Assembly (NCBI GenBank): GCA_016703645.1
Contig: JADJBR010000010.1
Location: forward strand, 659,514 to 723,513
Length of the DNA: 64,000 nucleotides
Reading direction: 5' to 3'
From: Zoogloea sp.
Lineage (GTDB): Bacteria; Pseudomonadota; Gammaproteobacteria; Burkholderiales; Rhodocyclaceae
Below the pieces are notes generated by a model. That model did not search any database. It was not told the origin of the DNA and saw only the letters and a program-made list of their open reading frames with translations. Within the stretch, counting starts at the first letter, position 1. Every line of letters starts with the position of its first letter. Position numbers and translations under genes: made by a program. This document shows, in pieces, positions 5,981 through 8,142 of this stretch.

Positions 5981-7249
5981 TCAGCAACCGATCACCTTGA
6001 ATTCGACACGGCGATCCAGCGCATCGCTGGCGTCATCGCGCCCGTTGCCGATCATCGTCTGCCGGGAGCCCGCACCGCTGGCAATCATGCGTTTTGCCAA
6101 TCCGGCAGACTCGGCGTCCAGGCGGTTTCGGACGTATTCCGCCCGCAGCAGGGACAGACGCTCGTTCAGCGGCTCCGGTCCGGTCGGACTGGTGTGGCCG
6201 GCCACCTCCAGACAGGCGCCGGAACTCGCCGCCCGCATTGCGATGGTCTTCAACCATACCGGGTAGGGGCCACTCAGCCTCGCGTCCTGCACGAAAGCGG
6301 TCGAACCCGGCCGGAACAGGAACTTGACCGCCAGGCGCCGGTGCTCCAGCCCGAAGTCGACGATGCCGGCAAAGGCAGCCGCGGCCTGCTCCCGACGCCC
6401 GAGCTTCCAGTTGGTGAGGTAAAGGCCATTGAGTGCGCGCAACTGTCTGCCCGACGGCATGGCCAGCACACTTGCGTAGAGGTCAAGCGCCTCGCGGTAG
6501 CGTCCCGCATCGTAGTTCTGGATGGCCTCGGCCGTGAGGGCTGCGGCCAGGATGCGGTCCAGGTACAGCGGATTGATCGGATCCCCCGCCTTGGTTCCCT
6601 GGCAGGTCCGGATGTAGCCGTCCGTCGCCGGGTCGTCGGACCACGCCGGCGTGTCCCTGAAGAAGGGCAGTGGCGTTGGATCAACCCCCTCCGGCAAAGC
6701 GAAGGCCAGGCCCTTGCCAACCAGCTTGCCGCTACGCAGATCCGCCAGGGCAAGGCAGATGCGGTAGGCTTGGCGCTCGCCGGACGCCTGCCTCTGGGCG
6801 TTGACACCGGTCAGTGTGCCGATCAGCACCAGCGGGCCGCGGGCCACATTGGCGGCCGAGAAGGGCTGCACGTCATATTGCGGGTAGTGCTCGCGCATCA
6901 TCTGGACAAGACGCTCGCCCATCGACCGGGTTGCCACCGACTGGGTGCCGGTGACCCCATCGATCAAGGGGTCGATCACCACAGGGTAGCGTCTCCCCGG
7001 TGACGAACCTTCCACAGGCAGCCTGGCGTTTTTGAACAGGGCCGCCGCGGCACTGAGCACCGCGGTGTCGTAGGCCTGGATCGGAGGAGGCACGGCGGGG
7101 GCCGACGTGGGCCGGAGCACCTGGCCCGACCCCTCCGGCGGGGGAGATGGCGCTGGATCCACGCCGCTGCACCCCCCTGTCACCAGCACGGCAAACAACA
7201 GAGCCCCCCACATGCGGCGGCCACCGGACGAGCGTGAGAGCATGTTCAT
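5981..7249 (-). CDS. OmpA-domain lipoprotein paired with TIR protein
   Basis: A 422-residue exported protein. The N-terminus (hydrophobic GALLFAVLVTGGC, candidate lipid-anchored C27) looks like a lipoprotein signal, though the lipobox is not perfect (TGGC). A Pro/Ser-rich linker follows. The middle part (VVIDPLIDGVTG, VLIGTLTGV, ADLRSGKLVGKG) resembles periplasmic lipoproteins that bind partner proteins. Next comes a TPR-like stretch (NYDAGRYREALDLYASVLAM). The C-terminus is an OmpA-like peptidoglycan-binding domain (VAGHTSPTGPEPLNERLSLLRAEYVRNRL and DRRVEFKV). The start overlaps the stop of the TIR gene (ATGA), so the two are translationally coupled. It probably anchors a complex to the cell wall. 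Exact function unknown. Confidence 0.78.
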   Translation of the reverse strand: MNMLSRSSGGRRMWGALLFAVLVTGGCSGVDPAPSPPPEGSGQVLRPTSAPAVPPPIQAYDTAVLSAAAALFKNARLPVEGSSPGRRYPVVIDPLIDGVTGTQSVATRSMGERLVQMMREHYPQYDVQPFSAANVARGPLVLIGTLTGVNAQRQASGERQAYRICLALADLRSGKLVGKGLAFALPEGVDPTPLPFFRDTPAWSDDPATDGYIRTCQGTKAGDPINPLYLDRILAAALTAEAIQNYDAGRYREALDLYASVLAMPSGRQLRALNGLYLTNWKLGRREQAAAAFAGIVDFGLEHRRLAVKFLFRPGSTAFVQDARLSGPYPVWLKTIAMRAASSGACLEVAGHTSPTGPEPLNERLSLLRAEYVRNRLDAESAGLAKRMIASGAGSRQTMIGNGRDDASDALDRRVEFKVIGC

Positions 7250-8142
7250 TGCCGGCACTCCTTCTGGAAATAGTGCCGGGTTTCGTCCGAGAGCGATTCT
7301 CCCAGCTGAATCCGGGCAACAAGATCGGCGCACCGGGATGTCCTGGCAGAGGCCCTGTCCACACGGGCCGCGGGCGTCCGCTCCTTGGTGTTGGCCATCG
7401 CACCGACCACCACCGGCGCAGGCCGGGCCGGCACGGACGGGGCGGGTGGCAACGGGTCGATCCGCGCGGGCGCAGGCGGGGGAGCCACAACAACCCGTGG
7501 TACCGGTGTGGTGGGCTCCACCTGGGGCGCAGTGGGCTCGGCCAAGCTGCCCCCAGCCGGGGCCGGCCGAAGGACGTAGACGGCACCGGACGCGAGCAAC
7601 ACCGCCGCCGCAATGGCTGCCACCAGCAGAACGGGCCGCGGCCGCCGACCCGGCACCGCATTGCCGCCAACCTGGTCGGCGGGATCATAGGCCGGCGCCG
7701 CATCTCCCGGCCGAACCGGGTCTTCCAGCGACTGGCCCCCAAGGGAGTCGGGTTTGCCCAGAAGGCGTTCAAGATCCGCAACGAGCAGACGCATACCCTC
7801 GAATTCGAGGCTGCCGTCCCAGTGGGTCAGGTCGGCCGCCTGGATCTCGCGGAAGCCGGCCGGTGGCCGGACCGCCTCGATCAGGACCGGGACGAGCTTG
7901 CCCTGGCGTCGCCCCTCCGTGGCCTCTTCATACACCCACTCGCTCTCGATCGAGCGTGCCGACCACAAAACGACCATGCAGCGCATCCGCTCGAGAGCAC
8001 GCTCAAGCACGTTGCGCCAAGTGTCCCCCGCCGGGATGCGACGATCCCACCACACCGTCCAGCCGGCGGACTCCAGCATCGCGGCGATACGGCGCGCCTC
8101 GTCCCTGTCCTTCTCCGTGTAACTCAGGAAGATGTCCGCCAT
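7246..8142 (-). CDS. TIR-domain transmembrane protein
   Basis: A 298-residue protein with an N-terminal TIR domain (about 1-130): MADIFLSYTEKD, WTVWWDRRIPAGD, VVLWSARSIESEWVYEEA and KLVPVLIEA. W69 and E73 match the W-x3-E spacing of the catalytic glutamate in TIR NADases. A single membrane segment lies at about 171-191, followed by a Pro-rich linker and a C-terminal periplasmic part with two cysteines (C271, C296). TIR should therefore be cytosolic and the tail periplasmic. I chose the ATG at 8142 because it begins exactly at the TIR fold and has GAGG 6 nt upstream. It overlaps the downstream OmpA-type lipoprotein by 4 bp. A role in defence or stress signalling is inference. Confidence 0.85.
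   Translation of the reverse strand: MADIFLSYTEKDRDEARRIAAMLESAGWTVWWDRRIPAGDTWRNVLERALERMRCMVVLWSARSIESEWVYEEATEGRRQGKLVPVLIEAVRPPAGFREIQAADLTHWDGSLEFEGMRLLVADLERLLGKPDSLGGQSLEDPVRPGDAAPAYDPADQVGGNAVPGRRPRPVLLVAAIAAAVLLASGAVYVLRPAPAGGSLAEPTAPQVEPTTPVPRVVVAPPPAPARIDPLPPAPSVPARPAPVVVGAMANTKERTPAARVDRASARTSRCADLVARIQLGESLSDETRHYFQKECRQ

Follow-up and report, generated by a model that had tools for sequence, protein, structure and literature searches.

Why does the gene of a TIR-domain membrane protein overlap that of an OmpA-type lipoprotein, and which part of such a pair is the defining one? The question is raised by a locus of Zoogloea sp. (assembly GCA_016703645.1, contig JADJBR010000010.1, positions 659,514-723,513), in the stretch of 64,000 nucleotides analysed here and termed the window. 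A first-pass annotation read the two genes as a candidate envelope-spanning TIR system. Its ATGA-overlapping open reading frames (ORFs) are right to the base; they lie on the minus strand (8142-7246 and 7249-5981). The argument turns on the following parts of the locus.

7246..8142, minus strand: gene of the TIR, membrane helix and tail protein, 298 amino acids plus stop (ORF; PF13676, 1.3e-25)
5981..7249, minus strand: lipoprotein gene, 422 amino acids plus stop (ORF)
7246..7249, minus strand: ATGA overlap of the TIR stop and the lipoprotein start
7249..7344, minus strand: conserved C-terminal 'QLGE' tail of the TIR protein, residues 267-298, a helical hairpin with C271 and C296

The pair is probably one version of a modular trans-envelope relay, in which the lipoprotein and the tail are fixed and the output is exchanged. 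The unit of lipoprotein and tail partner is apparently undescribed; among the papers listed in searches of the open-licence PMC literature, none is on the TIR-tail/lipoprotein pair.

Lipoprotein relatives and their exchanged partners

In a set of 150 genomes of the same family, the window's own included, lipoprotein matches that extend beyond the C-terminal part comprise 24 genes in 19 genomes (in G125 only residues 91-380 are matched). The remaining matches in this family set start at residue 263 or later and are not counted among the 24. A tail partner lies no more than about 150 bp away from 14 of the 24 genes, and these partners carry a TIR domain in three genomes (G000, which is the window's own, G112 and G139), a Ser/Thr kinase in seven cases, a caspase in three and a cyclase-like domain in one.

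GTDB genomes were scanned with a single pattern that falls inside the OmpA part. The 349 relatives obtained possibly include proteins that share the OmpA part alone. The best 80 of the 349, matching at least residues 90-420, were kept; five of them repeat family-set places. The kept relatives span Rhodocyclales, Burkholderiales, Competibacteraceae, Accumulibacter, Skermanella, Bosea and Bradyrhizobium. At 52 of these loci the tail partner could be classified, as TIR (20), kinase (17) or caspase (15); the rest consist of two tails whose front is lost at a contig end, 20 loci without a tail neighbour and six that contig ends or N runs make unassessable. Of the 80 loci, 46 are backed by the tail model; assignment by eye adds eight, namely L145 and seven Bosea-type caspase tails, which are shorter.

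TIR-lipoprotein coupling is conserved, being present at 23 TIR-type loci (the window, two others of the family set and 20 of the 80 GTDB loci). The first-pass annotation, however, took the TIR domain as the defining part of the pair, and this is rejected, since the enzyme partner varies in both the family set and the GTDB loci: the same tail and lipoprotein also go with kinases, caspases, cyclase-like domains and an ATPase.

As partner, the longest of the ORFs that end close to the lipoprotein match was chosen; it was classed by seed similarity, with Pfam run on 14 entries (13 distinct proteins). In these sampled partners Pfam confirms the kinase, caspase and TIR domains and assigns AAA_22 to L222 (1.8e-15). 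The tail proteins of L089 and L244 are cyclase-like, the latter by eye. Pfam matches nothing in L089; among structures a mycobacterial chain comes first (8.6e-5), with nucleotide cyclases at E 0.35 or worse. In the 1ybt chain, which is labelled a lipJ hydrolase, the matched part is presumably a cyclase domain. A strict motif pattern is present in 18 of 25 kinase partners, and on a looser look five of the seven misses show the Lys, HRD and DFG motifs, while L122 and L125 are without HRD. The caspase His and Cys are found by pattern in 18 of 19 partners and by eye in L086. At L240 a hydrophobic segment and tail occur without an enzyme (by eye), and at L099 the TIR frame is interrupted and the first tail Cys absent. 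The partner gene precedes the lipoprotein gene in most pairs; L143 and L155 have the reverse order, with the tailed caspase downstream.

On a lipoprotein tree of 103 rows, a quick tree with some long branches in which the labels of L143 and L155 were later found wrong, the partner labels need 17 changes, against a shuffled mean of 52.3. Enzyme exchange appears to have happened repeatedly, because the starred branches force at least two changes for TIR, at least six for kinases and at least four for caspases.

Lipoproteins that lack a tail partner nevertheless often have an enzyme beside them. A large WD40-caspase gene lies directly downstream in L077 and L079 (Pfam) and in L158, L164, L161 and L175 (by eye). 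In Bradyrhizobium L152 and L154 a convergent caspase-like gene is found (by eye). L074, L075, L076 and L140 form a tail-less clade, three of the four beside tssK- or tssJ-like genes of a type VI secretion system (T6SS; by eye). Other examples (L117, L131, L157, L176) have no enzyme or T6SS neighbour among the genes listed beside the lipoprotein. In L141 (2905-4536 and downstream) three genes follow one another, for a secreted tail-like protein of 97 residues, for the lipoprotein and for a cyclase-like protein (by eye).

The tail and its correlation with the lipoprotein

Forty aligned tails of approximately 30 residues share three invariant positions, two Cys and one Gly, with the consensus RCADLLxRxQLGExLS...KEC. 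Within the TIR set (20 rows) C271, G281 and C296 are conserved and the preceding linker is not. The structural model has helices at 261-279 and 286-296, with a block of predicted local distance difference test (pLDDT) values of 87-93 over residues 271-298; the two Cys may be joined by a disulfide. A periplasmic tail had been claimed for the TIR protein. A tail does follow the membrane helix, but its end is a conserved, confidently modelled helical hairpin and no plain tail.

A hydrophobic segment above the threshold lies between enzyme and tail in 18 of 23 TIR partners and 20 of 23 kinase partners. In caspase partners (17 of 19) the hydrophobic segment is N-terminal to the caspase domain, as for signal peptides. 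Because of these positions, the tail is predicted to be periplasmic in both designs, helix-anchored and secreted, and so to share the compartment of the lipoprotein.

When the tail was searched alone, all 14 matches in the family set at E<=0.001 adjoined one of the 24 lipoproteins; 12 of the 14 were training rows, and the result therefore speaks for exclusiveness and is not an independent discovery. Six new matches came from wider draws at class (369 genomes), phylum (398) and order level (399), which overlap one another. Five adjoin a lipoprotein: G181 (a kinase, with one ORF between), G910 (tail only), two in G958 (kinases) and G1253 (cyclase-like). In 15 genomes picked for holding the lipoprotein, seven of seven tails adjoin one (two are training rows, one belongs to the locus for which its genome was picked, and the other four go with a lipoprotein copy different from the selecting one). 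The unit is rare, since in the class draw the tail occurs in two of 369 genomes, the window's own included.

Tail and lipoprotein also vary together. Over 70 tail-lipoprotein pairs (rows in which no tail was recognised were omitted, as were L099, L110, L114, L118 and L155, which are repeats or have an interrupted frame) the distances correlate with r 0.72, and with r 0.587 over the 1712 comparisons between pairs with differing enzymes. None of 2000 within-class permutations reached the observed r (permutation mean 0.15), and the partial r of tail distance is 0.69 with the lipoprotein as against 0.11 with enzyme class. Six pairs, from three enzyme classes (caspase, cyclase-like and kinase), have a tail of CxxCxC form, and all six lipoproteins concerned fall in one nine-row set of the lipoprotein tree.

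The TIR protein

The remaining parts of the TIR protein are:

7807..8133, minus strand: TIR domain, residues 4-112 (model block with pLDDT 85-96 over residues 1-130)
7924-7926, minus strand: codon of the catalytic-type E73, invariant and aligned to AbTIR
7576..7632, minus strand: single membrane helix, residues 171-189 (model helix 171-190, pLDDT about 70)
7363..7575, minus strand: Pro/Ala-rich unconserved linker, residues 190-260 (alignment and model; pLDDT mostly <70)

The TIR domain with its W69/E73 pattern stands as first annotated: the TIR_2 profile PF13676 matches at 90.7 bits (E 1.3e-25) against a cut-off of 28, and both residues are invariant in all 20 rows of the TIR-partner alignment. 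By alignment to AbTIR, E73 is the counterpart of the Glu in its WxxxE motif. In a Foldseek comparison of the model with the PDB the best matches are TIR domains, including those of SPARTA, AbTir, MyD88 and SARM1; the profile of the TIR-partner alignment gave no match to PDB sequences at 1e-5. The claim of a NADase-type domain holds as far as the fold match to TIR NADases and the invariant catalytic-type Glu go, and NADase activity of the window's TIR domain is likely. PADLOC matches of the protein are confined to TIR stretches, the best being SAVED_TIR (1.9e-11, residues 2-74).

The single membrane helix is likewise confirmed, with one hydrophobic segment at 171-189. Three basic residues precede it and one follows, which suggests that the TIR end lies on the cytoplasmic side.

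Other TIR proteins show related layouts. In L091, L092, L093, L095 and L097 a hydrophobic segment follows the TIR domain and the C-termini differ and are without the QLGE tail (by eye); a TIR domain, a helix and a periplasmic domain may be a wider receptor design. In the window's genome (4.99 Mb, 10 contigs) the TIR_2 profile gives 19 matches at E<=0.001, of which 18 exceed the curated cut-off, a large TIR repertoire for one 5 Mb genome.

The lipoprotein

The lipoprotein is divided as follows:

7169..7249, minus strand: signal peptide and lipobox-type end at C27 (C27 invariant in 22/22; Ser at +2)
6584..7081, minus strand: N-terminal alpha/beta domain, residues 57-222 (model)
6344..6571, minus strand: TPR-like four-helix segment, residues 227-302 (model, and Pfam on relatives)
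5984..6343, minus strand: OmpA-like domain, residues 303-422 (GHTD Asp replaced by Ser354; Arg369 kept)

The closest named relatives, among the GTDB matches, are in Dechloromonas- and Azonexus-type bacteria (68-76% identity). The residue at lipobox position +2 is other than Asp in 21 of 22 members. Asp at this position is the signal for inner-membrane retention and a non-Asp residue fits outer-membrane sorting; the lipoprotein is thus predicted to reside in the outer membrane.

Both profile (PF00691, 28.0 bits against a cut-off of 27.2) and fold identify the C-terminal part as an OmpA-like domain. Its structure matches include YfiB, and it resembles TagL as well. In OmpA domains an Asp and an Arg hold diaminopimelate (D271 and R286 of Acinetobacter baumannii OmpA); the Arg, Arg369 here as placed by alignment to omp38, is retained in 72 of 72 aligned lipoproteins. 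The TPR segment that had been proposed is below the Pfam cut-off in the window's own protein, but TPR_2 matches 12 of 22 relatives (E<=1) and four helices are modelled at 227-302. Similarity of the N-terminal domain to known families is faint, with LpoB at E 0.0024 and FlgO at E 0.066, each in one of 22 members. The structure alignment of the lipoprotein covered residues 199-422.

Genomic site and distribution

On one side of the pair is a gene for an Hsp15-like S4-domain protein, and on the other a gene for an AEC-type transporter (both named from the sequence). A genus survey found the anchor gene in 22 of 23 genomes, and 12 loci were inspected. At eight (L225, L227, L229-L234) the site is empty and the flanks nearly adjoin; at two (L224, L226) the lipoprotein ORF is open and the TIR gene missing, and the pair is present at one, the window's own L223. 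The DNA of the empty site L225 is 96-97% identical over 1.2-1.5 kb on each side, and 90% in the Hsp15-like gene. At the remaining locus (L228:220-1520) an unrelated cassette with a peptidoglycan-binding/peptidase-like ORF occupies the same site (by eye). A fixed housekeeping operon is rejected on these counts, and the pair is an accessory locus; the site may be an insertion spot.

Defence genes in the vicinity would have fitted the first-pass reading, but no clear neighbourhood of this kind was seen. PADLOC models (E<=1e-15) match few of the 124 neighbours of 19 TIR-type loci: mad3 three proteins, phospholipase-effector models two and mad2 one. Location in a defence island is not supported by these few matches. 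Pfam assigns the same neighbours to families of mixed metabolic and regulatory kinds. These neighbour scans cover TIR-type loci. Relatives of the lipoprotein were found in none of 50,697 phage records and in one of 72,556 plasmid records.

Proposed mechanism and alternatives

Gene coupling, a constant tail and lipoprotein beside exchanged enzymes, the predicted topology, and the TIR fold with its catalytic-type residues are what the analysis shows, and from them a relay can be pictured. The lipoprotein, with its alpha/beta, TPR and OmpA-like parts and an outer-membrane anchor, would bind the partner's two-Cys hairpin tail in the periplasm. The other end of the partner would be an exchangeable cytoplasmic enzyme behind one helix (TIR, Hanks-type kinase, class III cyclase-like or AAA ATPase) or, in an alternative design, a caspase exported to the periplasm. 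If the envelope changes, the contact of lipoprotein and tail would be altered and the enzyme switched, probably because copies are brought together; in the window the output would be NAD+ cleavage by clustered TIR domains. Here we infer the direct binding, the signal and the direction of control.

A number of observations weigh against this relay. Tail-less lipoproteins are common (20 of the 80 kept GTDB loci and 10 of the 24 family-set genes), and some adjoin T6SS or caspase genes instead; to judge from the lone ORFs of L224 and L226, the lipoprotein may act without the TIR protein. The sixth new tail match in the wider draws, and the weakest (G849, 2.2e-4), is internal to an unrelated Bax/FlgJ-like protein, has neither Cys and is near no lipoprotein. 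The correlation of tail and lipoprotein could come partly from linkage, the two being adjacent on the DNA. The positive-inside signal is mixed, since among 18 helix-called TIR partners basic residues before the helix are more numerous in 14, equal in two and fewer in two. The lipoprotein of L069 has Asp at +2. The position of the usual Asp in the GHTD loop is Ser in 65 and Arg in seven of the 72 aligned sequences, and for this reason anchoring to peptidoglycan is doubtful; the domain first annotated as peptidoglycan-binding is upheld by profile and fold, but the usual peptidoglycan-binding Asp is absent from all 72.

Other explanations can be considered. The pair might be dedicated to abortive infection against phages, with the lipoprotein sensing damage by phage injection or lysis and the TIR domain depleting NAD+. 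Outputs of TIR and caspase type are characteristic of immune effectors, as effector exchange is of defence systems; presence also differs between close relatives, as at L225, where near-identical flanks enclose neither gene. Set against this are the few PADLOC matches among the neighbours of TIR-type loci, the restriction of the TIR protein's own matches to TIR stretches, the counts in phage and plasmid records, and the frequency of kinases as an output; a dedicated anti-phage role is possible, but unlikely.

A pair for envelope-stress or cell-wall homeostasis signalling, in which TIR, kinase and cyclase would be regulatory outputs with no role in defence, would suit the frequent kinases and the faint LpoB-type similarity of the N-terminal domain in one relative. 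It would also suit the closest working analogue, YfiBNR, which responds to cell stress (PMC4887326). Patchy presence (19 of 150 family genomes) and the empty sites speak against a core regulator, and caspases are proteases; this explanation too we regard as rather improbable. Judged from the sequence, the purpose may be either phage defence or envelope homeostasis.

It is improbable that the tail is a localisation anchor only, by which the lipoprotein keeps the enzyme at the wall without passing a signal: tethering would need no more than a conserved tail behind a non-conserved linker, but enzymes of signalling or death type would make little sense permanently tethered without control. A main function of the lipoprotein as a T6SS accessory anchor, with the tail proteins as T6SS regulators, is very improbable, since despite the tssJ- and tssK-like genes by the lipoprotein in L075 and L140, the tssK-like gene in L074 (by eye) and the resemblance of the OmpA part to TagL, the T6SS-linked lipoproteins are without a tail partner and no T6SS family is among the first 25 of the 84 Pfam families of neighbours of TIR-type loci.

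The modular relay is thus the reading preferred here. It can be extended, with rather less than even confidence, to a new class of bacterial receptor, in which a fixed outer-membrane lipoprotein and a docking tail would trigger immune or signalling enzymes on either side of the inner membrane upon envelope damage. If true, this would be a Gram-negative one-receptor design with interchangeable effectors (TIR, caspase, kinase, cyclase and AAA ATPase). Should the tail be a docking plug, one lipoprotein family would explain envelope control of unrelated enzymes, including caspases and TIR NADases. Some of the many bacterial TIR and caspase proteins that are orphans would gain a receptor open to testing, and the unit would be a domain-swap system supplied by nature, with five or so outputs for the same sensor.

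Comparison with known systems

AbTir, the SPARTA TIR and SARM1 share the TIR fold with the window's protein, and AbTIR shares the WxxxE Glu; to our knowledge, none of these has a single membrane helix and a periplasmic tail. ThsB of Thoeris is alike in its TIR domain, with weak profile matches to the window's TIR (24.6 bits at best), and we know of no lipoprotein partner for it. The locus does not qualify as Thoeris, as no ThsA is among the PADLOC matches (E<=1e-15) of the 124 neighbours of 19 TIR-type relatives; the window's own neighbours were inspected by eye only. LpoB- and FlgO-type lipoproteins are faintly similar to lipoprotein relatives in the N-terminal domain, and we are aware of none with a TPR part, an OmpA part or a tail partner.

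In some iSTAND/VMAP conflict systems a membrane helix is followed by OmpA, PEGA, PASTA or Sel1 parts, and the effectors are variable (Kaur et al. 2020; PMC7159879). They differ in being centred on vWA-MoxR-STAND NTPases, and in the parts of that source compared a lipoprotein with a QLGE tail is not described (PMC7159879).

Zorya combines a peptidoglycan-binding part, an inner-membrane step and cytoplasmic effectors that vary by type (PMC11890865); differing effectors behind an envelope part are also the property of the tail/lipoprotein unit. ZorAB, however, is a MotAB-like ion motor, whereas the window has one lipoprotein and one single-pass protein. The first-pass comparison with Zorya does not hold in its parts: the ZorB profile matches the lipoprotein at 22.7 bits over the OmpA stretch only, no ZorA model is matched among the 124 neighbours of TIR-type loci, and where ZorB has a membrane helix the lipoprotein has a lipobox-type Cys (22/22). 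What survives of the first-pass interpretation is the conserved coupling, the TIR fold and the invariant Glu; definition by the TIR domain, the defence neighbourhood and the Zorya parts do not, and the peptidoglycan anchor is doubtful.

In YfiBNR of Pseudomonas aeruginosa an outer-membrane OmpA-type lipoprotein controls an inner-membrane enzyme (PMC4887326), as is proposed for the tail/lipoprotein unit. The differences are that YfiBNR has three proteins (YfiB-YfiR-YfiN) and a GGDEF output, with no exchange of output in the material compared. Its partners are YfiR and the GGDEF protein YfiN, and the tail partners found here are TIR, kinase, caspase, cyclase-like or ATPase proteins. YfiB consists of the OmpA-type domain alone. 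The tail/lipoprotein unit belongs to neither YfiBNR nor Zorya. The window pair, with a tail of two Cys and a Gly beside a lipoprotein that has the N-terminal domain, the TPR segment and the OmpA part, belongs to the tail-lipoprotein family proposed here.

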